In this document: positions 5,118-63,545 of the stretch, in pieces | Layout of the letters: each line of letters opens with the position of its first letter | Position numbering within the stretch: the stretch's first letter is position 1 | Origin: Nocardioides jiangxiensis | Lineage (GTDB): Bacteria > Actinomycetota > Actinomycetes > Propionibacteriales > Nocardioidaceae | Reading direction: 5' to 3' | Length of the DNA stretch: 64,000 nt | Assembly: GCF_030580915.1 (NCBI RefSeq) | Contig: NZ_JAUQTA010000001.1 | Location: 372,001-436,000 of the forward strand | Program-made: the position numbers and the translations under genes | Notes under the pieces: model-generated | What the model saw: the letters and a program-made list of their open reading frames with translations, nothing else | What the model was told of the DNA's origin: nothing | Database searches by the model: none

Positions 5118-5834
5118 ATGTCGCACCTCGGCTCCACCCTCGTCGCCCTCGTGACCACCTCGCTCGCCGTGGCCGGCATGGTCAGCGCCGCTCCCCCGGC
5201 GACGGCCGCTCAGACCGTCGCCTCGGCACAGCGGCTGCTCAACGACCTCGGCTGCGACGCGGGCGTCGCGGACGGTGTCTTCGGCACCCGCAGCAAGGCG
5301 GCGGTGATCAAGTTCCAGGCCGCGAACGCGCTCGCGCAGACGGCGTCGCTCGACACCGCGACCTGGCGCCGGCTGGGCGCCGCCACCAAGGTGCGGTGCG
5401 ACCGGAGGCCGGTACCGGCCGGCTCCGGAAGCGGCCGCCGGATCGTCGTCTCGCGGACCCAGAACTACGTCTGGCTGGTCCGCGCCGATGGCACCGTGCG
5501 CTGGCAGGGCGGCGTGATCGACAACCCGTCGGTCTTCGGCACCGGGACCTACCCGAGCGGTGCGGCGTGCGGGCGACCGGCCCACGTGCTGCACAACACC
5601 GACTACTCCGGCACCCTCCGCCTCGACCACTACAGCAGGATCCGCACCGGCCTCTGCGGTGTGGGCTTCCACCGCGTGCCGGTGCGGAAGTCCGACGGCA
5701 CGCAGATCCATGCCGACTGGCTGCTGGGCACCAACCTCAAGGAGTCCCACGGCTGCCTGCGCGTGACCGCGCGGACGGCACAGGAGATCTGGGACTTCAC
5801 CCAGTCCTCCGTGCCGGTGGTGTTCAGGCCCTGA
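5118..5834 (+). CDS. Secreted L,D-transpeptidase with peptidoglycan-binding domain
   Basis: A 238-residue exported protein. Residues 1-31 are a signal peptide with a cleavage region around PATAA, 34-88 form a peptidoglycan-binding type 1 domain (SAQRLLNDLGC, GVFGTRSKAAVIKFQ), and the C-terminal half is a YkuD catalytic domain. The catalytic signature is SHGCLRV at 210-216 with C213 as nucleophile, and H185 lies in the upstream GFHRVP motif. Enzymes of this family make 3-3 peptide cross-links or attach proteins to the wall. GGAGG before the ATG gives a good ribosome site. A second L,D-transpeptidase, with a membrane anchor, is encoded at 39286. Confidence 0.93.
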   Translation: MSHLGSTLVALVTTSLAVAGMVSAAPPATAAQTVASAQRLLNDLGCDAGVADGVFGTRSKAAVIKFQAANALAQTASLDTATWRRLGAATKVRCDRRPVPAGSGSGRRIVVSRTQNYVWLVRADGTVRWQGGVIDNPSVFGTGTYPSGAACGRPAHVLHNTDYSGTLRLDHYSRIRTGLCGVGFHRVPVRKSDGTQIHADWLLGTNLKESHGCLRVTARTAQEIWDFTQSSVPVVFRP

Positions 5835-47105: not shown

Positions 47106-48506
<1,401 letters not shown>

Positions 48507-48600
48507 GATGGCTCTCCTGTGTTCTTGCGGACCGGCTGGCTGCCGGCTCGTGCCGCAGAAGCGTACCGATCCGGTGCGTGGCCGCGCGCACGTGGGGACT

Positions 48601-48606
48601 TAGGGT
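48601..48606 (+). promoter_or_regulatory. Leaderless -10 element of the APC permease gene
   Basis: TAGGGT (48601-48606) is followed by seven bases and the ATG at 48614, with no ribosome-binding sequence between. Confidence 0.5.
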
Positions 48607-48613
48607 GAGCGCC

Positions 48614-50575
48614 ATGACGACGACGCCCACGCCGACGCCGCCTCGACGTACGCTCCGCGACTGGTTCCTCGAGGGTGACCGGCCCGAGCCGGAGGGCTTC
48701 TACGAGTCCGAGGCGCACGTCGAGGCACAGCACCACACGCATGCCTGGTGGAAGGTCATGTGCCTCACCGGCGTCGACTACTTCTCGACGCTCGGCTACC
48801 AGCCGGGCATCGCCGCCCTGGCCGCCGGCGCGCTCTCCCCCATCGCGACGCTCGTCCTCGTCCTGATCACGCTCTTCGGCGCCCTGCCGATGTACCGCCG
48901 GGTCGCCCAGGAGAGCCCGCACGGCGACGGCTCCCTCTCCATGCTGGAGCGGCTGCTGGCCTACTGGCCGAGCAAGCTGCTCGTCCTGGCCCTGATCGGC
49001 TTCGTCGCCACCGGCTTCGTCATCACCATGACCCTGTCGGCCGCCGACGCGGCGGCCCACATGATCGAGAACCCGTTCCTGCACGACGCCCTGAGCGGCG
49101 GCCAGATCTGGGTGACACTCGGCCTCCTGGCGCTGCTCGGCGCCGTCTTCCTCAAGGGCTTCAACGAGGCGATCGGCATCGCCGTCGTCATCGTCGTGGC
49201 CTACCTGGGCCTCTCGTCGGTCGTCATCGTCAACGGGCTCGCGGCCATCGTGCAGGAGCCCTCCCTGCTCGACGACTGGTGGGGCAACGTCACGCTCGAC
49301 CACTCCGCGCCGTTCGGGATCATCGGCGCCTCGCTGCTGGTCTTCCCGGCACTCGCGCTCGGCCTCTCCGGCTTCGAGACCGGCGTCGTCGTGATGCCGC
49401 TGGTCAAGGGCGACCCCGACGACAAGCCGCGCCGCCCGAAGGGCCGGATCCGCAACGCGAAGAAGCTGCTCACCACGGCGGCCGCGATCATGAGCGTCCT
49501 GCTGCTCAGCTCCTCGCTGGTCACCACGGTGCTCATCCCGCACGAGGCCTTCGAGGACGGCGGTCCGGCCAACGGTCGCGCGCTCGCCTACCTGGCTCAC
49601 TCGCGGCTGGGTGACGGTTTCGGCACGGCGTACGACGCCTCGACGATCGCGATCCTCTGGTTCGCCGGCGCCTCGGCGATGGCGGGCCTGCTCAACATCG
49701 TTCCCCGCTACCTGCCGCGCTACGGCATGGCACCGGACTGGGCCCGCTCGGTGCGGCCGCTGGTCGTGCTCTTCACCGGCATCGCCGCCGTCGTCACGCT
49801 CGCCTTCCGGGCCGACGTCGACGAGCAGGCCGGCGCCTACGCCACCGGCGTCCTCGCCCTGATGACGTCGGCCGCCGTCGCCGTGACGCTGACGGAGTGG
49901 CGGCGCCGCCACCGCCCGCTCGCGGCGTTCTTCGGCGTGATCAGCGCGATCTTCATCTACACGATCAGCGTGACGATCGTCGACCGACCCGAGGGCCTCC
50001 TCATCGCACTCGTCTTCGTGCTGATGATCCTGGTGATCTCCGTGATCAGCCGGATCCGCCGCGCCACCGAGCTGCGCGTGCAGGGCGTCCACCTGGACGC
50101 CGGCGCCCAGCAGATCGTGGACACGGCCATCGGCGACCCCCGACCCATCCGGTTCATCGCCAACAAGCTCCAGGCCGGCGACGACCTCGAGTACGACGCC
50201 AAGATGGCCGAGGTCCAGCTCGACAACCACCTCGGCGACCACGAGGACCGGATCTTCCTGGAGGTCGCGGTCACCGACGCGAGCGACTTCGCGGGAGTCG
50301 TCGAGGTCACCAGCGTGCAGGTGGGTCGACACCGGGTGCTGCGCGCGACGGGCCCGTCCGTGCCGAACACGATCGCCGCCTTCCTCCTGCACGTGCGGGA
50401 CCTCGACCAGCAGGTGCCCCACGTCTACTTCGAGTGGAGCGAGCGCTCGCCGGGCGAGAACGTCATGCGCTTCCTGCTCGCCGGCGAGGGCGACATCCCG
50501 CCGCTGACGCACGAGATCCTGCGCAAGGCCGAGCCGGACGAGTCGCGCCGCCCCCAGGTCCACGTCGGCGGCTGA
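48614..50575 (+). CDS. APC superfamily amino acid permease with cytosolic C-terminal domain
   Basis: A 653-residue transporter. About 60 residues of acidic N-terminus lead to roughly 12 membrane helices, with [25 protein letters not shown] near 60 as the APC unwound helix 1 and [17 protein letters not shown] near 255. The C-terminal 150 residues are soluble, start [18 protein letters not shown], and contain [15 protein letters not shown] and [13 protein letters not shown]. The transported substrate is not known; potassium transporters of the KUP type were considered but the motifs fit APC better. Confidence 0.88.
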
Positions 50576-50596
50576 CGCCGACACGCCGGCCGACTC

Positions 50597-50638
50597 TTGA
50601 CCGGACGGTCACGTGCGGCGACTATGACAGTCGTCATA
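50597..50638 (+). promoter_or_regulatory. Two palindromes and a -35 before the molybdopterin oxidoreductase
   Basis: TGACC-GGAC-GGTCA (50598-50611) overlaps the -35-like TTGACC (50597-50602), and TATGAC-AGTC-GTCATA (50623-50638) covers the expected -10 region. Both are exact inverted repeats with 4-base spacers. The TetR regulator at 53102 is the obvious candidate to bind one of them. Confidence 0.6.
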
Positions 50639-50663
50639 ACCGTCGTACGCCGAGGAGCCGACC

Positions 50664-53101
<2,438 letters not shown>

Positions 53102-53105
<4 letters not shown>

Positions 53106-53653
53106 GTGTCCGGGACACGATGGTCGCGAGCGCTGCGGCCCTGTTCCGCCAGCGCGGTGTCGCGGGCACGTCCCTGCGCGACGTCGTCGCGCACGCCGGC
53201 GCGCCCCGTGGGTCGATCTACCACCACTTCCCCGGCGGCAAGGCCGAGCTCGCGAACGCCGCCACGGACCTGGCCGGCGGATTCATCGAGCGCCTCCTCA
53301 CCGGGGTCCTGGACAGCGGGGATCCCGCTGGGGCGATCACCGCGTTCGTCGACTACTGGAGCCGGTCTCTGACCGCGCACGACTTCGCCGACGGCTGCCC
53401 CGTCGCGGCAGCGGCGGTGTCGTCCGACGAGACCGCAGGCGCCCGAGCCCGAGCGGGTCGCGCTTTCGCCCGCTGGCAGGAGCAGCTCGCGACCGCGCTC
53501 ATGGCGCGGGGCATGGCGTCGGACCTCGCCGTCGACCGCGCCGGGCTGGCGATCGCCGCCGTCGAGGGAGCGCTCCTCGTCGCGCGTGCCCAGCGGAGCA
53601 CGGAGCCCCTCGAGCGGGTGGCGCGCCAGCTCACACCGCTGCTCGCGAGCTGA
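53102..53653 (+). CDS. TetR/AcrR family transcriptional regulator
   Basis: A 183-residue regulator: HTH in FRQRGVAGTSLRDVVAHAGAPRGSIYHHFPGGKAEL, then a ligand-binding domain with GCPVAAAAVSSDETAG and the C-terminal AVEGALLVARAQRSTEPLERVARQL. This is the LmrA/YxaF-like subgroup by the GCPV motif. It is translationally coupled (ATGA) to the oxidoreductase gene upstream, and palindromic sites in front of that gene suggest a shared autoregulated operon. Confidence 0.93.
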
Positions 53654-53662
53654 GCACCCGGG

Positions 53663-54910
53663 TCACCAGGCAGCGCGGCGACGACCCTGCGTGCGGGGTC
53701 CGCTGACCGTCAGGGCCGCGATCACCGTCGTCGCCGGCATCGCCAGGACCAGGCCGATGCTCGAGGCGAGCGTCATCACGCACTCCTCGGCGAACTGCTC
53801 GGTGAGCAGCATGTCGAGGAGCGTGCGGTCGTAGAGCGCCACGAACAGCAGCGTCGTCAGCGCCGTGCCGGCGTACACGAAGACGATGGTGTAGATCGCC
53901 GAGGCGATGTGGTCGCGCCCGATGCGCATGGCACTGGTGTAGATCTCGCGCCGGGTCATCGTGGCGGACGCAGCCCGCAGCTCCCAGACGGCCGAGGCCT
54001 GGGTGATCGTGACGTCGTTGAGGACGCCGAGGCCGGCCACCACGATCGCCGCGACCATCAGCGCACGGAAGTCGAGGTCTCCCGCATAGGTCCGCAGCGG
54101 GTCGCTGGCCTCGGCTCCGAGGCCGCTCAACCGCGACCAGCCCACCGCCTGGAGACCGAGGAGCGCGGTGACGCCGAGTCCGACGAACGTGCCCGCCAGG
54201 GCGGTGCTCGTCCGCACGGACAGCCCGTGGGCGGCGTAGAGGACGACGAACATGATCGTCGCCGAGGCGGTGAGTGCGACCGGCACGGGCGCATGGCCCT
54301 CGAGCAGCGCCGGCACCATCCAGAAGCCGACGACCAGGACCGCGATCCCGAGGCCGAGCAGCGCCATCAGTCCTCGCCACCGGGCCACCAGCAGCACCAC
54401 CAGCACGAACGCCGCGAGGAGCAGGCCGACCGGCACGCTGCGCTGGGTGCCGAAGTAGGAGTAGACCGTCGTGCCGTCCGGGGTCGGCACCTTGGCCAGC
54501 GTCACCCGGTCGCCCGCGCGCAGGCCCGACCGCGTGGCTCCCGGCTCCGCCTGCACGTCGACCTTCGTCCCGTCGGCGAGCTTGACGGTGAGGCCGTCAC
54601 AGCCCTGGGGCATGGTCGGCGCGTCGGCCGGATCGGCGTTCGGGTCGATGACGGGGCACGGACGGTGCGCGTCCACGACGGTCGCCGACGGGTAGGTCAC
54701 GCCGGTGGCGGCGTACTGCGCATGGGGCCGGTGGCCGTCTGGCCAGAGCTGGACCAGCCCGACCACCGTGGCGATCGCCGCGAGGACGAGGAAGGCGAAG
54801 AGGGCCCGGCGCGGCGTCGCCGCCGTGCGCACGTCCGCGAAGGCGGCCGCATCGTGCCCGTGGGAGTGCCCGTGCGAGTGCGCGTGGGAGTGACCGTGCG
54901 TGTGCGCCAT
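53663..54910 (-). CDS. YibE/F family membrane protein with His-rich N-terminus
   Basis: A 415-residue protein. Residues 2-21 are histidine-rich (HTHGHSHAHSHGHSHGHD), a probable zinc-binding tail. A membrane helix follows near 40-60, then an extracytoplasmic domain with CPVIDPNADPADAPTMPQGCDG (two cysteines) and DRVTLAKVPTPDG, and seven or eight helices with GWSRLSGLGAEASDPLR and VAGLGVLNDVTITQASAVWEL, the YibE/F signature. It is divergent from znuA with Zur boxes between them. The family's transport role is unknown; zinc is implied by the context. Confidence 0.9.
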   Translation of the reverse strand: MAHTHGHSHAHSHGHSHGHDAAAFADVRTAATPRRALFAFLVLAAIATVVGLVQLWPDGHRPHAQYAATGVTYPSATVVDAHRPCPVIDPNADPADAPTMPQGCDGLTVKLADGTKVDVQAEPGATRSGLRAGDRVTLAKVPTPDGTTVYSYFGTQRSVPVGLLLAAFVLVVLLVARWRGLMALLGLGIAVLVVGFWMVPALLEGHAPVPVALTASATIMFVVLYAAHGLSVRTSTALAGTFVGLGVTALLGLQAVGWSRLSGLGAEASDPLRTYAGDLDFRALMVAAIVVAGLGVLNDVTITQASAVWELRAASATMTRREIYTSAMRIGRDHIASAIYTIVFVYAGTALTTLLFVALYDRTLLDMLLTEQFAEECVMTLASSIGLVLAMPATTVIAALTVSGPRTQGRRRAAW

Positions 54911-54973
54911 GGCGCGAAGCCTGCCACCTGGCCCGAACCCGCCGACGAGACCCGGCGGCCGGAACGCCAACAG

Positions 54974-55011
54974 TTGACAACGATTCTCAAATCGAGTGAG
55001 AATTGTTCTCA
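54974..55011. promoter_or_regulatory. Two Zur boxes over the znuA promoter
   Basis: TGACAACGATTCTCA (54975-54989; arms match at five of six bases) and TGAGAATTGTTCTCA (54997-55011; arms perfect) start 22 bp apart. A TTGACA -35 (54974-54979) overlaps the first, and GAGAAT (54998-55003), 18 bases on, is the -10 inside the second. The last A of the second box is the first base of the znuA ATG. The boxes also face the divergent YibE/F gene. Confidence 0.85.
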
Positions 55012-55949
55012 TGTTCTCGCCTGTCACGCGCACCGCTGCCCGCCCGCTCCTCGCGACGATCCTTGCCGTCAGCGCGGCGTCCGGCCTGGCTGCGTGCGGC
55101 GTCGACTCCCCGGGGTCCGGTCGTCTCCAGGTCGTCGCAGCCTTCTACCCGCTGCAGTACGCCGTCGAGCGCGTGACGGGCGGGAACGCCGACGTCACCA
55201 ACCTGACCCAGCCGGGCAAGGAGCCGCACGACCTCGAGCTCTCGGTCCACCAGGTCGCCGAGGTCGCGAAGGCCGACCTCGTCGTCTACGAGGCCCACTT
55301 CCAGGCAGCGGTCGACGCGGCGGTGGACGACAACCGCACGGGCCCGTCGGTCGACGCCGCCGCCCACGTCGACCTCCTGCCTGCGCCCGATCCACACGGC
55401 CACGAGGCCGACGGCGAGGAGCACGGCGACCTCGACCCCCACTTCTGGCAGGACCCGCTGCGCATGGCCTCCCTGGGCGACGCCCTCGCGAAGGAGCTCG
55501 GCACGGTCGACCCCGAGCACGCCCGGGAGTACACCCGCAACGCCGCCGCCCTCCGGTCCGACCTCGTCGACCTGGACGCCGCCTACCGGACGGGACTGGC
55601 GAGCTGCCAGCGGGACACGATCGTCGTCAACCACGACGCCTTCGGCTACCTCGGCACGTACGGCCTGCACATCGAGGCGATCTCCGGCCTCTCCCCCGAT
55701 GCCGAGCCGACCGCCTCGACCCTCCAGCACCTCCACGACCTGATCCGCAGCCACCACCTGACGACGGTCTTCTCCGAGACCCTGGTCAGCCCCCGCGCCG
55801 CAGACGCGATCGCCGGCGACCTCGGCATCCACACCGCCGTGCTCGACCCGCTCGAGGGCCTCACCTCCGAGGCGGAGCAGAATGGCGGCGACTACCTGAC
55901 CGTCATGCGGCAGAACCTCGCCCTCCTGAAGAAGGCCAACGGCTGTTGA
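55011..55949 (+). CDS. znuA: Zinc ABC transporter substrate-binding lipoprotein
   Basis: A 312-residue ZnuA-type binding protein with lipobox LAAC near residue 28. Zinc ligands fit the family: H in EPHDLELS near 66, a His/Asp/Glu-rich loop DPHGHEADGEEHGDLDPHFW near 127-146, H in VVNHDAFGY near 210 and E in SETLVSP near 250. It collects zinc outside the cell for ZnuB/ZnuC. The ATG at 55011 gives a leaderless message whose start lies at the edge of a Zur box; a GTG at 54996 is the alternative. It overlaps znuC by four bases. Confidence 0.94.
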   Translation: MFSPVTRTAARPLLATILAVSAASGLAACGVDSPGSGRLQVVAAFYPLQYAVERVTGGNADVTNLTQPGKEPHDLELSVHQVAEVAKADLVVYEAHFQAAVDAAVDDNRTGPSVDAAAHVDLLPAPDPHGHEADGEEHGDLDPHFWQDPLRMASLGDALAKELGTVDPEHAREYTRNAAALRSDLVDLDAAYRTGLASCQRDTIVVNHDAFGYLGTYGLHIEAISGLSPDAEPTASTLQHLHDLIRSHHLTTVFSETLVSPRAADAIAGDLGIHTAVLDPLEGLTSEAEQNGGDYLTVMRQNLALLKKANGC

Positions 55950-56791
55950 TCACTCCCGACCCCGCCCCGACGCACGTCGACGACAGCCCCGTCGTCGAGG
56001 TACGCGACGCCTCCGTCTCCCTGGGCGGCCGGCCGATCCTGCGCCGGGTCGACCTCACCGTCCACCCGGGCGAGTTCGTCGCGCTCATGGGGGCCAACGG
56101 CTCCGGCAAGTCGACCGTCGTCCGCACGATCACCGGCCTCGCGCCGCTGACCGGTGGCGAGGTCCGCCTCTTCGGAACCCCGCTCGACCGCCTCCACGAC
56201 CGCCACCGCCTCGGCTTCGTCCCGCAGCGGGTCGGCGTCGGCGGCGGCGTGCCCGCGTCGGTCTGGGAGGTCGTCGCCTCGGGGCGACTGACCCGCCGCC
56301 GCTGGCTGCGACCCTTCAACGCCGCTGACCGCGCAGCGATCCGCAGCGCCCTCGAGGTCGTCGGTCTCTCCCACCGGGTCCGCGACGGCGTCGCCACGCT
56401 CTCCGGCGGGCAGCAGCAGCGCGTGATGATCGCGCGGGCCCTCGCCAGCGAGCCCGAGCTGCTCTTCCTCGACGAGCCCACCGCGGGCGTCGACCTGCCC
56501 AACCAGGTGGCACTGGCCGACGCCCTGCGCCTCCTCAAGGAGCGTGGCGCGACCATCGTCCTCGTCGCCCACGAGCTCGGCCCGCTGGCCCCGCTCGTCG
56601 ACCGTGCGGTGGTCATGCGCGACGGCCGGGTGGCGTACGACGGCGCCCCGCTCGCCGACCACGAGGTCCACGGTCCGCTCTTCGGCGAGATCCACACGCA
56701 CCACCACCCGGAGGGCGAACCGGCCAAGCCGCACCGGCCCCAGGTCGCCTCGCCTCTCGACCCTCGCGAGACCCCGGAGGCGGGCCGATGA
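55946..56791 (+). CDS. znuC: Zinc ABC transporter ATP-binding protein
   Basis: A 281-residue ATPase. Walker A is GANGSGKSTVV near 52, the signature is LSGGQQQRVMIARAL near 150, Walker B is LLFLDEPTAGVD and the H-loop is VLVAHELGPL. A C-terminal extension (about 245-281) is His/Pro rich (EIHTHHHPEGEP). The TTG start at 55946 forms a TTGA overlap with the znuA stop; the next ATG is inside the domain. Drives zinc import with ZnuB. Confidence 0.93.
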   Translation: MITPDPAPTHVDDSPVVEVRDASVSLGGRPILRRVDLTVHPGEFVALMGANGSGKSTVVRTITGLAPLTGGEVRLFGTPLDRLHDRHRLGFVPQRVGVGGGVPASVWEVVASGRLTRRRWLRPFNAADRAAIRSALEVVGLSHRVRDGVATLSGGQQQRVMIARALASEPELLFLDEPTAGVDLPNQVALADALRLLKERGATIVLVAHELGPLAPLVDRAVVMRDGRVAYDGAPLADHEVHGPLFGEIHTHHHPEGEPAKPHRPQVASPLDPRETPEAGR

Positions 56792-57795
56792 GCGACATCC
56801 TCTCCGTGCTGACCCTGCCGTTCATGCTGCGCGCGCTCGTCGCCGCGCTCTTCACGGGCCTGGCAGCACCCGCGATCGGCACCTACCTGGTGCAGAAGCG
56901 CCTCGCCCTCATGGGCGACGGCATCGGCCACGTCGCCGTCACCGGTGTCGCACTCGGCCTGCTGACCGGCGCCTCGCCGACCTGGACCGCGGTCGGCGTG
57001 GCGGTGGCGGGGGCCGTGGTCATCGAGCTGATCCGCGAGCGGGGCACCACCAACGGCGACGTCGCCCTCGCGCTGCTCTTCTACGGCGGCCTGGCCGGTG
57101 GCGTCATGATCACCGGCATCGCCGGGCAGAGCGCCCAGAGCCTCCAGGCCTACCTCTTCGGTTCGCTGCTCAGCATCGACACCTCGGACGTCGTGGCCAC
57201 CGTCGCCCTGGCCGCCACCGTGCTCGTGCTCTGCATCGGGCTCGGGCCTCAGCTCTTCGCGGTGACACAGGACGCCGACTTCGCGCGCGTGGCCGGTCTG
57301 CGCGTGCGCTTCTACAACGTGCTGATCGCCGTGCTGGCGGCGGTCACGGTCACGGTCGCGATGCGCACCGTCGGCCTGCTGCTCGTCTCGGCCCTCATGG
57401 TCGTGCCCGTGGCGACGGCCCAGCAGGTCACCCGCTCCTTCCGCACGACGCTGACCGCGGCGATGGGGATCGGCGTGCTCTCGGCGATCGGCGGCCTGGT
57501 GGCGTCGGCGTACCTCTCGGACCTGGCGGACGTCGCCCCCGGCCCGACCATCGTCCTGGTCGCCCTCGCACTGTTCGCCCTGTCGTGGCCCCTCGGCGTG
57601 GTGCTGCGGCGCAGGCGTCGGCAGGTGGAGCCGTTCGCGCCGCTCGACCCGCTCGCACACGAGGTCATCGGCGAGCACCCGCACGAGCACGGCGAGGACT
57701 GCGGCCACCCGGCCGTCCCGCACGGCGACCACGTCGACTACATCCACGACGGCCACCGCCACGCAGCGCACGGAGAGCACTATGACGAGCACTGA
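56788..57795 (+). CDS. znuB: Zinc ABC transporter permease with His-rich tail
   Basis: A 335-residue ABC-3 family permease with about nine membrane helices; signatures are QKRLALMGDGIGHVAVTGVALG near 40 and RTVGLLLVSALMVVPVATAQQV near 195. The last 45 residues are cytosolic and carry at least a dozen histidines (EHPHEHGEDCGHPAVPHG, then further HGEH-type repeats), which could act as a zinc buffer or sensor. It overlaps the zur gene by 14 bases, and its start overlaps znuC by four bases. Confidence 0.94.
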   Translation: MSDILSVLTLPFMLRALVAALFTGLAAPAIGTYLVQKRLALMGDGIGHVAVTGVALGLLTGASPTWTAVGVAVAGAVVIELIRERGTTNGDVALALLFYGGLAGGVMITGIAGQSAQSLQAYLFGSLLSIDTSDVVATVALAATVLVLCIGLGPQLFAVTQDADFARVAGLRVRFYNVLIAVLAAVTVTVAMRTVGLLLVSALMVVPVATAQQVTRSFRTTLTAAMGIGVLSAIGGLVASAYLSDLADVAPGPTIVLVALALFALSWPLGVVLRRRRRQVEPFAPLDPLAHEVIGEHPHEHGEDCGHPAVPHGDHVDYIHDGHRHAAHGEHYDEH

Positions 57796-58198
57796 GCACG
57801 GCCACGCCGCCGCGCCCGCCGTCCGGCCCACCCGGCAGCGCCGGGCGGTCGCCGACGCGCTGGCCAGCTTCGACGACTTCCGCAGCGCGCAGGACATCCA
57901 CGCGCTGCTCACCGAGCGTGACGAGAAGGTCGGCCTCGCGACCGTCTATCGCACGCTCCAGCTGCTCAGCGAGAGCGGTGAGGTGGACATGCTGCGCACC
58001 GAGGACGGCGAGGCGATCTACCGCCGTTGCTCGGCGACGCACCACCACCACCTGGTCTGCCGCTCGTGCGGTGCCACCGTCGAGGTGGAGGGCCCGGCCG
58101 TGGAGCGCTGGACGCGCGCGATCGCGGCCGAGCACGGCTATGCGGACATCGCGCACACGCTGGAGCTGTTCGGCACCTGCCGGGCGTGCGCGGGCTGA
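57782..58198 (+). CDS. zur: Zinc uptake regulator Zur (Fur family)
   Basis: A 138-residue Fur-family metalloregulator. Winged-helix DNA-binding part: RPTRQRRAVADALASFDDFRSAQDIHALL and KVGLATVYRTLQLLSESGEVD. Metal-binding part: ATHHHHLVCRSCG and a C-terminal CRAC, giving the structural Cys4 zinc site, with H-rich sensing residues between. Location at the end of znuACB makes Zur, rather than Fur, the sensible call. It is expected to bind the boxes at 54975-55011 when zinc is plentiful. Confidence 0.93.
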   Translation: MTSTEHGHAAAPAVRPTRQRRAVADALASFDDFRSAQDIHALLTERDEKVGLATVYRTLQLLSESGEVDMLRTEDGEAIYRRCSATHHHHLVCRSCGATVEVEGPAVERWTRAIAAEHGYADIAHTLELFGTCRACAG

Positions 58199-58201
58199 GT
58201 C

Positions 58202-58999
58202 CTACTCGACGACGGTGCCGGCGACCTCGTTGGGCACCGCGCCGCCGTAGCGGCGGTCGCGCCGGGCGTACTGGTCGCACGCCGCCCACAGGTGGCGCCG
58301 GTCGACGTCGGGCCAGAGCACGTCGGTGAAGACGAACTCGGCGTACGCGGACTGCCAGGTCAGGAAGTTGGAGAGGCGCTGCTCCCCCGACGTACGCCAG
58401 ATCAGGTCGGCATCGGGGAACTCCGGCACGTAGAGGTGCTGGGCGATCGTCTTCTCGTCGATCTTCTCGGGGTTGATCTTCCCCGCTGCTGCGAGCCGGG
58501 CGATCGCCCGCGTGGCGTCGACGAGCTCGGGGCGTCCGCCGTAGTTGATGCACATCGTGAGGGTGAGGACGTCGTTGTCCTTCGTCATCTCCTCCGCGAT
58601 GCGGAGCTCCTTCAGGACCGACTTCCACAGCCGTGGCGCGCGACCCGCCCACCGGACCCGTACGCCGAGGGCGTGCATCTCGTCGCGGCGGCGACGCACG
58701 ACATCGCGGTTGAAGCCCATGAGATAGCGGACCTCCTCGGGCGAGCGCGACCAGTTCTCGGTCGAGAAGGCGTAGACGGTGACCGCCTTGATGCCCAGCT
58801 CGATCGCACCCTCCATCACGTCGAAGAGCGCGAACTCGCCCTGTGCGTGGCCGGCGTTGCGCGGCAGTCCACGCTCCTTCGCCCAGCGTCCGTTGCCGTC
58901 CATGACGATCGCGACGTGCTCGGGGACCAGCTCCGCCGGAATCGGCGGCGGCTTCACACCCGAGGCGTGCGGCTGGGGCGTGGCGTAAGGATGAGGCAC
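58202..58999 (-). CDS. uppS: Isoprenyl transferase (undecaprenyl/polyprenyl diphosphate synthase)
   Basis: A 265-residue cis-prenyltransferase. The pyrophosphate-binding motif is HVAIVMDGNGRWAKERGLPRNAGHAQG near 28, followed by VYAFSTENWSRSPEEV near 75 and the C-terminal DLIWRTSGEQRLSNFLTWQSAYAEFVF. It makes the long polyprenyl diphosphate that becomes the wall carrier lipid. The GTG at 58999 has TAAAGT seven bases upstream; a GTG three codons further upstream (59008) is the alternative. It is next to recO in many Actinobacteria, as here with one gene between. Confidence 0.95.
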   Translation of the reverse strand: MPHPYATPQPHASGVKPPPIPAELVPEHVAIVMDGNGRWAKERGLPRNAGHAQGEFALFDVMEGAIELGIKAVTVYAFSTENWSRSPEEVRYLMGFNRDVVRRRRDEMHALGVRVRWAGRAPRLWKSVLKELRIAEEMTKDNDVLTLTMCINYGGRPELVDATRAIARLAAAGKINPEKIDEKTIAQHLYVPEFPDADLIWRTSGEQRLSNFLTWQSAYAEFVFTDVLWPDVDRRHLWAACDQYARRDRRYGGAVPNEVAGTVVE

Positions 59000-59006
59000 A
59001 GGCCTC

Positions 59007-59012
59007 ACTTTA
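59007..59012 (-). promoter_or_regulatory. Leaderless -10 element of uppS
   Basis: TAAAGT on the minus strand (59012-59007) stands seven bases before the GTG at 58999. It would overlap the start codon of the alternative GTG at 59008, which argues for the shorter protein. Confidence 0.45.
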
Positions 59013-59092
59013 GGGGGCACCCTCTTCGGCGATTCACCACGCGGGCGATGTGACGCAGGAGTAACTTCGTTCGTGCACACTGTTATCCAACC

Positions 59093-59632
59093 GTGACCTT
59101 CACACTGCGAAGAGGAACCGTGGAGCCGAAGACCCCCAACGACGTGATCGAGCAGCAGCTCACCAAGGTGATGCGCCGCAGCAACGCGATCCACGTGAGC
59201 ACCGCCAGCGGCGAGGTCGCCCTGGAGCGCTCCAGCTACGGCATCCTGTGCCTGCTGGCCGACGAGGGTCCCCAGCGCCTCGGCGCGATCGCCTCGGCCT
59301 TCCACCTCGACCCCTCGACCGTCACCCGCCAGGCACAGGCCGTCGTCAAGCTCGGCCTCGCCGCGAAGAAGACCGACCCGGGCGACCGGCGGGCGACCCT
59401 GCTCAGCCTCTCCGACTTCGGCGAGCGCTCGATCATGGAGGCACGCAACTTCCGACGTCAGGCGCTCGACCTGCTCCTCGCCGACTGGTCGGCGGAGGAC
59501 ATCGCCGAGTTCGGCCGGCTGCTGTCGAAGTTCAACGACACGATCGACCACTGGGACAACGGCGCCGTGCCCGACGAGATCACCAACCACCCACTGGCCG
59601 CCCCCGCACCCGACGGCGAGCCCGAGGCCTGA
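59093..59632 (+). CDS. MarR family winged-helix regulator
   Basis: A 179-residue winged-helix protein: YGILCLLADEGPQRLGAIASAFHLDPSTVTRQAQAVVKLGLAAKK is the HTH and DPGDRRATLLSLSDFGERSI the wing. The GTG at 59093 has TGTTAT six bases before it; a GTG at 59120 with AGAGGA three bases before it would remove nine residues. No transporter or enzyme gene is coupled to it, so the target is not obvious. The C-terminus is acidic and Pro rich. Confidence 0.88.
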   Translation: MTFTLRRGTVEPKTPNDVIEQQLTKVMRRSNAIHVSTASGEVALERSSYGILCLLADEGPQRLGAIASAFHLDPSTVTRQAQAVVKLGLAAKKTDPGDRRATLLSLSDFGERSIMEARNFRRQALDLLLADWSAEDIAEFGRLLSKFNDTIDHWDNGAVPDEITNHPLAAPAPDGEPEA

Positions 59633-59659
59633 CGCCCTCGCTCGACGGCGCCCTCGCGG

Positions 59660-60400
59660 TCAGCGCTCGACGTACGCGAGCGAGCGCAAGCCACGCTCCA
59701 CGTGCCACTGCAGGTACGCCGCGACGAGGCCGGTCGCCTCGCGACGGTGCCGCGGCTCGCTCGCGTTGACGGTGGCCCAGTCCCCCGCGAGCAGTGCGCC
59801 GAGCAGGACCAGGGTCTCGGGAGCCGGCCCCGCCGAGCCGGGCAGCTTGTCCGCCGCACACAGCACGCCGCCCGCCGCCGGGTGGAACCAGCGGTGCGGC
59901 CCGAGCTCGCCGCAGCGTGCGCACGCGTCGAAGCTCGGCGCGTAGCCAGCGACCGAGAGGCTCCGGAGCAGGTAGGAGTCGAGGACCTGGCCGTGCGGCT
60001 TCGGGTCCGCGCCGTCGAGCCCGGTCATTGCGCGCAGGCCGCCGACCAGCAGCAGGAACTGCTGGAGTGCGGGCTCGCGGTCCTCGGTGATCAGCCGCTC
60101 CGCCGTCTCCAGCATCGCCGTCCCCGCGGTGTACCGCTCGTAGTCCCTCCCGAGGTTCGCGGCGAACGGCGTGAGGGTCACCGCCTGGGTGATCGTGTCG
60201 AGGTTGCGGCCCTCGGCGAGCTGGAGGTCGACGTGGCTGAACGGCTCGAGCCTGCTCCCCCAACGGCTGCTGGTCCGGCGTACGCCCTTGGCGACGGCAC
60301 GCACCCGACCCTGGTCGCGGGTCAGCAGCGTGATGATCCGGTCGGCCTCACCCAGCTTGTGGGTGCGGAGGACGACGGCCTCGGCGCGGTAGAGGGGCAC
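59660..60400 (-). CDS. recO: DNA repair protein RecO
   Basis: A 246-residue RecO, which with RecR loads RecA on gapped DNA. It starts PLYRAEAVVLRTHKLGEADRIITLLTRDQGRVRAVAKGVRR (an OB fold, in parts) and has a helical domain with a zinc-type pair in CARCGELGPHRWFHP and a further Cys in GGVLCAADK. The GTG at 60400 is the family start. CACAAT lies seven bases upstream, so the message is probably leaderless and shares its -10 region with the divergent gene. Confidence 0.95.
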   Translation of the reverse strand: MPLYRAEAVVLRTHKLGEADRIITLLTRDQGRVRAVAKGVRRTSSRWGSRLEPFSHVDLQLAEGRNLDTITQAVTLTPFAANLGRDYERYTAGTAMLETAERLITEDREPALQQFLLLVGGLRAMTGLDGADPKPHGQVLDSYLLRSLSVAGYAPSFDACARCGELGPHRWFHPAAGGVLCAADKLPGSAGPAPETLVLLGALLAGDWATVNASEPRHRREATGLVAAYLQWHVERGLRSLAYVER

Positions 60401-60406
60401 GCGTTC

Positions 60407-60413
60407 TATTGTG
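60407..60413. promoter_or_regulatory. Overlapping divergent -10 elements (recO and the gene at 60419)
   Basis: Plus-strand TATTGT (60407-60412) is six bases before the GTG at 60419. Minus-strand CACAAT (60413-60408) is seven bases before the recO GTG at 60400. They overlap by five base pairs in an 18-base intergenic gap. There is no room for ribosome sites on either side. Confidence 0.55.
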
Positions 60414-60418
60414 CCGTG

Positions 60419-61237
60419 GTGACCTCGCCCTCGATGACGCCGCGCCACCACGCCCAGGACGTGTTCTTCGACGCGGTGATGCCGGCGCTGCCACCCGAAG
60501 CCCAGCACGCCGCGGCCGAGCTGCGGAAGGTGGGCTTGCGCGACTGGGTGATGTCCCTGGCCTCGGTCGCCTCGCTCGGCCTGATCGTCTGGTTCGGCTT
60601 CTGGCGGCCGGAGTCGGGCTCCGTGCGGCAGGCGGCGTACCTCGCCGACGCGGCCATCTCCGTGCTCTTCGCCCTGCGCCTGCTCGCGCGCCTGGCCCGC
60701 TACGGCCGCACGTCGCGTTTCTGGGCCACCGGCTGGTGGGAGCTGATCGCACTCGTCCCGCTCGTGACGCCCTGGGCGGGCACGGCCGCGCTGCCCCTCG
60801 TCGTCATCGGCCTGGCCCGCACGACGCGCGCCATCGACACCGGTGACAACGTCGTGGGCGACGCCGTCACCGTCTTCCTGATCGACCACTTCTCCGCGCC
60901 GATCGTCGATGCGATCAAGCGCCCGATCACGGTCGCGGTGCTCGACGAGGTCATCGACGTCATCCAGACCGGGACGTACGCCGCCAACGTGCGCGACGCG
61001 CTCGACGAGAACCGCATCGAGCTCGAGCAGATGGTCCACGACCTGCTCATGGCCGACCCGACCGCGGGCAAGCTGAAGTACGTGCCGTTCCACGACGAGA
61101 TCGTCGGCCTGGTCTCCGACACGGTGCTGCGCATCGTCGAGGGGGCCCTCGAGGACCCGCGGACGACCGAGCTGATCAGCGACGTCATCCGCAACTCCGC
61201 CGACCAGCTCCGCGACGCCGTGCGGGCCAAGGCCTAG
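60419..61237 (+). CDS. Membrane protein of unknown function
   Basis: A 272-residue protein. After about 35 polar residues there are three or four hydrophobic stretches (about 40-60, 70-92, 105-120, 121-135), the second with RLLARLARYG and the third with FWATGWWELIALVPLV, resembling the S2 to S4 part of voltage-gated channels but without a pore helix. A helical acidic soluble domain (about 140-272) follows, with VLDEVIDVIQTGTYAANVRDAL. GTG 60419 is used; an ATG at 60434 is an alternative. Function unknown. Confidence 0.78.
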   Translation: MTSPSMTPRHHAQDVFFDAVMPALPPEAQHAAAELRKVGLRDWVMSLASVASLGLIVWFGFWRPESGSVRQAAYLADAAISVLFALRLLARLARYGRTSRFWATGWWELIALVPLVTPWAGTAALPLVVIGLARTTRAIDTGDNVVGDAVTVFLIDHFSAPIVDAIKRPITVAVLDEVIDVIQTGTYAANVRDALDENRIELEQMVHDLLMADPTAGKLKYVPFHDEIVGLVSDTVLRIVEGALEDPRTTELISDVIRNSADQLRDAVRAKA

Positions 61238-61369
61238 GCGAGCGCGTCGGGCATCGAGCGCCCACACATCGGCGCACGTGGACGGCGCACGGACCACAGG
61301 CGCCGCCTGCACATCCAGGGAGAGGGCTGATCGCGGCGTCATCTTGACGTTCTGGCGCTACGGTCAGGC

Positions 61370-61735
61370 ATGGCCAGCCGCTACTCCCGCGCCGAGACGA
61401 CGCTCCTCCTCGGATCGGAAGGACTCGTGATCGCTGCGGGGTTCGCTGGTCTGATCGGCGAGAACCAGGCGCTCGCGGGTCTCGTGACCGGGCTCGTCGC
61501 AGTCGCCGTCGCGGCCGGACTGCTGTGGGGAGGCAGCCGCGTGGCATGGCCGGCACTCGGAGCTGGGATCGGTTTCACCGTCGCCCAGGCCTACGTGCTC
61601 GCCAGCGGCTGGGGCGACGAAGAGCTCATCGACCCGCTCGTGGTCCTCGGGGCCATAGGCATCCTCGCCGGAGTACCCCTGGCCGGTGCGACGGAGAGCG
61701 TCATCAGGGGCGGACGGTCCCAGCGCCACCGCTGA
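61370..61735 (+). CDS. Small membrane protein of unknown function
   Basis: A 121-residue protein with three or four hydrophobic segments (about 12-28, 34-55, 58-77, 85-110) and a basic C-terminal tail (RGGRSQRHR). The upstream 132 bases contain no gene; TACGGT (61359-61364), five bases before the ATG, could be a -10. The stop codon's last base is the first base of a large palindromic terminator. No family recognised. Confidence 0.65.
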   Translation: MASRYSRAETTLLLGSEGLVIAAGFAGLIGENQALAGLVTGLVAVAVAAGLLWGGSRVAWPALGAGIGFTVAQAYVLASGWGDEELIDPLVVLGAIGILAGVPLAGATESVIRGGRSQRHR

Positions 61736-61780
61736 CGTGCCGCTGCCGGCCGGTCCGCGGACCGGCCGGCAGCGGCACGT
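61735..61780. terminator. 46-bp perfect palindrome between convergent genes
   Basis: Bases 61735-61757 are the exact reverse complement of 61758-61780, giving a 23-bp uninterrupted stem (with a minimal hairpin loop). It starts in the stop codon of the upstream gene and ends seven bases before the leuA stop. It is the strongest palindrome I see in the window and is a bidirectional terminator. Confidence 0.85.
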
Positions 61781-61787
61781 ACGGTGC

Positions 61788-63545
<1,758 letters not shown>

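Follow-up and report, generated by a model that had tools for sequence, protein, structure and literature searches.

We analysed a 64,000-nucleotide stretch of a 3.0-Mb Nocardioides genome (the window, to whose full length all coordinates refer), in which a gene for a YibE/F membrane protein, yibEF, lies head to head with the operon of a zinc importer. The yibEF gene (53663..54910, - strand; Pfam PF07907, E-value 8.5e-67, 225.6 bits against a cut-off of 27.2) is separated by 100 bp from the divergent znuA (55011..55949, + strand; PF01297, 1.7e-71), which encodes the zinc-binding lipoprotein of the importer. Downstream on the + strand follow znuC for the ATPase, with a TTG start (55946..56791; PF00005, 9.5e-31), znuB for the permease (56788..57795; PF00950, 6e-58), and zur for a Fur-family repressor (57782..58198; PF01475). 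In this operon, znuA-znuC-znuB-zur (55011-58198, + strand), every neighbouring gene pair overlaps and zur comes last, as the original prediction had it when it placed zur at the end of the operon that it would repress. Binding protein, ATPase and permease are thus encoded together, and PF01297, PF00005 and PF00950 all score above their cut-offs, whereas the NCBIfam zinc equivalogs match the ZnuABC proteins below theirs. The His-rich tail ascribed to ZnuB is present, with 13 histidines among the last 50 residues. The best PDB matches of the repressor are 3mwm (1.4e-52), which we take to be Zur of Streptomyces coelicolor, and FurB of Mycobacterium tuberculosis (2o03, 3.2e-47), followed by a Fur protein (2.2e-20); the protein is nearest to the characterised actinobacterial Zur, not to Fur, Nur or PerR, and it is predicted to bind DNA in a zinc-dependent manner.

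Two predicted Zur boxes, both 7-1-7 palindromes identical to the pattern TGANAANNNTTNTCA, lie over the znuA promoter with a spacing of 22 bp. A consensus scan places the core promoter TTGACA-18-GAGAAT at 54974..55003 (+ strand, 10/12). The distal box, TGACAACGATTCTCA (54975..54989), contains the -35 element except for its first T, and the proximal box, TGAGAATTGTTCTCA (54997..55011), contains the -10 element, with the A of the znuA start codon (ATG, 55011) as its last base, a layout that would imply a leaderless znuA transcript. Apart from that single T, the earlier description of two palindromes covering the -35, the -10 and the first base of the start codon agrees with the sequence. With 0 or 1 mismatch, TGANAANNNTTNTCA occurs in the whole genome at these two boxes and nowhere else. 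In 100 shuffles of the window, the mean was 0.08 matches with at most one mismatch, and a single shuffle reached two. The pattern is also specific among 58 relatives, where it occurs 0-6 times per genome per strand; the reversed pattern was found three times in total. The closed zinc circuit that had been proposed is recognisable here, in that the operon ends with zur and no boxes are recognisable in the genome other than those in front of znuACB-zur.

A box at the start of znuA is by itself an ordinary feature. Among 47 distinct regions upstream of ZnuA matches at the examined loci, 46 contain a box with at most one mismatch and 20 at least two boxes; in 41 of the 47 a box ends on ATG or GTG, codons that were not matched against annotated starts. 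A boxed and apparently leaderless znuA start is hence nothing unusual, and zur beside znu is common in this class. What distinguishes the window lineage is the conserved arrangement with yibEF. In the two closest relatives found, G412 (YibE/F 81% identical) and G391 (79%), yibEF likewise lies back to back with znuACB-zur, and the two exact boxes between them are the sole exact boxes in each genome. These two genomes and the window form one well-supported branch on the genus tree, and in a three-way alignment the boxes are conserved and the flanks have diverged. A box in the yibEF region is thus present in the window and both of these relatives; the majority of loci do not have it.

Of 296 genomes sampled from the class, 142 contain YibE/F, and the named homologues of the window protein are from Nocardioides. 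Three partly overlapping sets of loci were compared. Set a comprises 133 loci, i.e. the window, 52 loci from the 58 relatives, and 80 from the 296-genome sample, the latter chosen by hand from about 150 listed matches (every new match from the genus, most of those from the family, and between one and a few from each other genus); set b comprises 80 named loci, and set c, which covers 92 of 123 matched genomes, 111 loci of the genus. In set a, yibEF is divergent from znuA at 10 loci, near znu and zur at 9, near zur at 5, near a COG0523-type GTPase gene at 6, near zur and such a GTPase gene at 2, and without zinc context at 101. At L044, L125, L152, L188, L236, L246 and L269, the call near zur depends on a Fur-family protein with only 46-57% identity to the Zur of the window, which may be another Fur protein. 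In set b, zinc genes occur at 10 of 80 loci, among them Georgenia ruanii (L251), where yibEF is divergent from znuA with a one-mismatch box between them, and N. caeni, N. pelophilus and Nocardioides sp. Root682, where a GTPase gene lies beside yibEF. The clade of the window protein is represented in set c by 92 loci, of which 34 have zinc genes nearby and 58 do not; the other YibE/F clades account for 19 loci, two of them with zinc genes. Zinc surroundings in other YibE/F lineages are found in genus g3, which belongs to the same order and has yibEF divergent from znuA at 8 loci, and at L160, L251, L044 and L125. A clustering of neighbouring genes over the 133 loci returned chiefly znu, zur and glyS, plus noise from antisense frames.

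The original prediction had proposed a search for relatives whose YibE/F genes share Zur boxes, and such genes exist. In 17 of the 92 genus loci, 14 of them away from znuA, the 170 nt preceding the yibEF match contain an exact box. The background density, three boxes with at most one mismatch away from zinc genes and yibEF starts in 1,374,419 bases of the 111 genus loci, leads to an expectation of 0.03 boxed yibEF genes. The 17 loci are not independent events, because they are confined to two clades. The second of these yibEF clades comprises 21 genus loci in which yibEF lies away from znuA, in an island that contains a GTPase-like gene, with or without an L31 gene, facing genes for the ribosomal proteins L28, L33 and S14 across a box. 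The GTPase-like gene carries a CobW_C domain according to Pfam, and its best NCBIfam match, below cut-off, is the ribosome-hibernation-factor-recruiting protein MRF; in those L28, L33 and S14 copies whose sequence was inspected, CxxC is absent. At 14 of the 21 loci yibEF stands opposite the COG0523-type GTPase across a box, the GTPase being CobW-type at L046, L064, L340-L342, L346, L350, L357, L365 and L368, and MRF-like at L056, L065, L353 and L367. At five further loci (L063, L330, L332, L370, L115) yibEF comes last, behind the ribosomal-protein paralogues. The locus L367 has two boxes: one lies at the GTPase gene, and the other immediately precedes the ribosome site and start codon of yibEF, ending 13 nt before the ATG. 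Judged by its gene content, the yibEF island looks like a zinc-starvation island. At L044 and L125, yibEF genes of a different clade adjoin a Fur-family gene, an MRF-like gene and ribosomal-protein genes of the island type. Overall, yibEF is repeatedly placed beside genes of Zur-type regulons.

More challenging is the question of how much of this association reflects gene order inherited from a distant ancestor. We searched for the window genes in the other 132 loci of set a, leaving aside antisense frames and one open reading frame containing an ABC ATPase, which matches any ABC gene. Most frequent were zur (25 loci), znuA (18), znuB (18), glyS (15) and the gene beside glyS (12), followed by uppS, recO and leuA with 8 each, all remaining window genes being found at 7 or fewer. 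On the class-wide tree (132 of 133 rows), any zinc context requires 15 changes, and the head-to-head arrangement of yibEF and znuA three, forced by the starred branches; on the tree of the genus, three changes are needed for the contexts with a box and ten for any zinc context. Old inheritance with losses is possible, and we dropped the claim of an independent gain for every zinc-linked copy, since the old gene block accounts for part of them. The block leaves the island unexplained.

We regard as the best explanation, and as somewhat better than even, that the 100-bp gap separating yibEF from znuA functions as a divergent Zur operator and controls both znuACB-zur and yibEF. According to this model, two Zur dimers would occupy the boxes 22 bp apart when zinc is present and cover the znuA core promoter; this would shut off znuACB-zur, zur included, and the same occupancy would keep yibEF low. 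In zinc starvation Zur would depart, and the importer and YibE/F would be produced. We infer Zur binding, repression of yibEF, and zinc as the cargo from the sequences. In a wider sense, boxes and gene contexts make it likely that yibEF is a gene of zinc starvation under Zur control, both in this lineage and in some others; most of the copies examined carry no such sign.

Several observations weigh against this model. No zinc gene was found, within the 5-7 kb searched, at 58 of the 92 genus loci and 101 of the 133 class-wide loci, and one of the 34 zinc-linked genus loci (L041) was counted because of a partial match to the GTPase at a distance of about 7.6 kb. A consensus scan of the stretch between yibEF and znuA detected no yibEF promoter, and at the island loci L363 and L374 yibEF is not immediately preceded by a box. 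Wherever yibEF faces znuA or the GTPase gene, the box may serve that other gene alone. From the control counts it follows that an old order glyS-yibEF-znuACB-zur-uppS-recO-leuA explains some of the proximity to zur; indeed, inherited order alone explains 9 of the 34 zinc-linked genus loci, in which yibEF occurs with uppS, convergent to zur and without a box of its own. Lastly, a His-rich N-terminal tail is common to the whole family in the class, and we rejected it as evidence for this locus. Since zinc genes are missing from the surroundings of most examined YibE/F genes, the link is limited to certain lineages.

According to the first alternative, the boxes serve znuA alone, and yibEF, outside Zur control, owes its position to gene order inherited within the slowly changing region from glyS to leuA. 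The recurrence of the old block in the class-wide control (zur 25, znuA 18 and glyS 15 of 132 loci), the nine loci with uppS and an unboxed yibEF, and the majority of YibE/F loci without zinc context all agree with it. Against it stand the genus loci away from the block, where yibEF is still boxed just upstream (14 loci) or follows the ribosomal-protein paralogues, and the separate box of yibEF at L367. On balance we consider this alternative rather unlikely, about one chance in several, and retain the divergent operator as the working model.

The YibE/F protein itself (PF07907 over residues 163-399; predicted model with a pLDDT, i.e. predicted local distance difference test score, of 87) combines a histidine tail with an HxH pair, an OB-like domain outside the transmembrane bundle, and, within the bundle, the invariant residues H228, D299, E310 and H334. 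Conservation was assessed in an alignment of 128 of 133 rows kept by length, which was also used for hhalign. The N-terminus is rich in histidine, as first described (9 of the first 20 residues), and codons 1-19 (54854..54910, - strand) encode a disordered tail with pLDDT under 50, whose HxH pair is conserved class-wide: H15 and H17 are conserved to 98-99% among the rows with a residue there. This very breadth of occurrence weakens the tail as an argument for the present locus. In the genus, tail histidines average 5.0 in zinc-linked copies (n = 34) and 4.5 in the others (n = 55; p 0.28; 89 of 92 copies, those with a placeable start).

The fold of the transmembrane bundle resembles that of the transmembrane halves of RND proteins and SecDF, although Z scores in this range can reflect a common helical arrangement. 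Kinship with RND/SecDF, a candidate prompted by this fold match and a SecF motif, was rejected, being unsupported by the Pfam scan, the PDB profile search and hhalign. A Pfam scan of 52 YibE/F members with E-values up to 10 gave no RND family; hhalign of YibE/F against SecF and SecDF gave probabilities of at most about 1%, which did not exceed the level of ZnuB, compared with 100% for SecF against SecDF. A separate PDB sequence search with YibE/F returned a single match, over the histidine tail (E-value 0.036). NCBIfam has no family for YibE/F. Any resemblance to the RND superfamily (AcrB, MmpL3, SecDF) would be one of helical fold, since comparison of sequence profiles did not relate YibE/F to SecF or SecDF.

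As to function, the suggested zinc-handling role of YibE/F gains support from the boxes and the zinc-gene contexts, as far as certain lineages are concerned. YibE/F is most plausibly a Zur-repressed membrane protein of zinc starvation, and perhaps a transporter; our guess, based on the HxH tail, the OB-like domain and the invariant H228, D299, E310 and H334, is that it moves or hands over zinc at the membrane. A bolder version, which we put forward only tentatively, sees in YibE/F a new zinc transporter or membrane carrier with a small RND-like bundle, a histidine tail and an OB-like domain, made on release of Zur and active beside ZnuABC under zinc scarcity, the copies without zinc link doing the same job under other control. 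We give similarly little credence to the alternative that YibE/F is Zur-repressed yet carries no zinc and acts in the cell envelope, in the export of proteins or in adjusting the ribosomes when cells are starved of zinc. The fold resemblance to RND and SecDF transmembrane halves and the island partners, i.e. ribosomal-protein paralogues and a GTPase with MRF as best NCBIfam match below cut-off, would suit such a role; the conserved HxH tail and the invariant His, Asp and Glu residues fit metal or proton handling instead, and profile comparison gives no relation to SecF or SecDF.

The reverse regulation, by which Zur would activate yibEF at high zinc for zinc export by YibE/F, has a precedent in the S. 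coelicolor exporter zitB, activated by Zur via a box upstream of its promoter according to the available part of the report (PMC5472717), and suits boxes upstream of yibEF with no yibEF promoter seen beneath; we nevertheless consider it very improbable, given that the island unites yibEF with genes of Zur-repressed kinds and that the second box at L367, 13 nt before the ATG, is in a blocking position. The placement of yibEF among the island genes points to expression in zinc starvation and argues against an exporter role.

Comparison with known regulons indicates which part of this system is new. In Corynebacterium glutamicum, the transcript of znuA1 (cg2911) begins at the A of the ATG and a Zur motif overlaps the promoter, and Zur-controlled divergent pairs share intergenic motifs, as predicted for the present locus (PMC2823685, available text). 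Unlike in the window, zur lies there outside the znu operon, in the znr-zur region; the divergent partners named there are znuB2/znuC2 and a COG0523 gene with an oxidoreductase gene, and YibE does not occur in the accessible text, whose reconstruction of actinobacterial Zur regulons omits Nocardioides from its genome list as given there. The regulons of S. coelicolor and M. tuberculosis share with the present loci the box type, znuABC, a COG0523 gene and ribosomal-protein paralogues, as far as the accessible parts of these reports extend (PMC5472717, PMC6103462); COG0523 genes and ribosomal-protein paralogues are Zur-repressed in both species (PMC6103462). Neither of the two regulon texts (PMC5472717, PMC6103462) contains the word YibE. 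The recognisable Zur regulon of the window genome is a single site, unlike in these two species. The YibE/F family (PF07907; TC 9.B.141 in the accessible part of PMC3924187) is without assigned function in our sources, and its regulatory setting is proposed here; no paper linking YibE/F to Zur was found in the literature searched, which leaves out most subscription papers. New is the proposed link between YibE/F and zinc starvation, the boxed znuA start being already known from C. glutamicum. Through its repeated placing among Zur-type genes, the family acquires a testable role, and the single divergent site of the window lineage allows a clean experiment. If YibE/F does carry zinc, zinc-starved actinobacteria would have a further zinc route beside ZnuABC. 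As a separate observation, mutants of the Staphylococcus aureus YibE/F-like pair SAUSA300_0442 and SAUSA300_0443 are less fit in human blood (PMC13227979, available part).

Some minor observations concern the surroundings of these genes. In the window, the order glyS - yibEF - znuACB - zur - uppS - recO - leuA extends over 47106-63515, and other genomes of the class carry pieces of it. A MarR-like frame, recognised by eye, lies between uppS and the recO-like frame (59093-59632); in the island-free relatives L031, L042 and L047, yibEF adjoins recO at the spot of this frame. At L044 (genome G012, about 3.7-7.8 kb) and L125 (G212, about 4.3-7.1 kb), the Fur-family gene beside the yibEF of the different clade, the MRF-like gene and the ribosomal-protein paralogues is a second one (53-57% identical to Zur), possibly a second zinc-responsive regulator. 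In the island of N. pelophilus (L206, about 5556-5678), the L28 frame has just 40 codons and an L33-like end, as if a deletion had fused L28 and L33.

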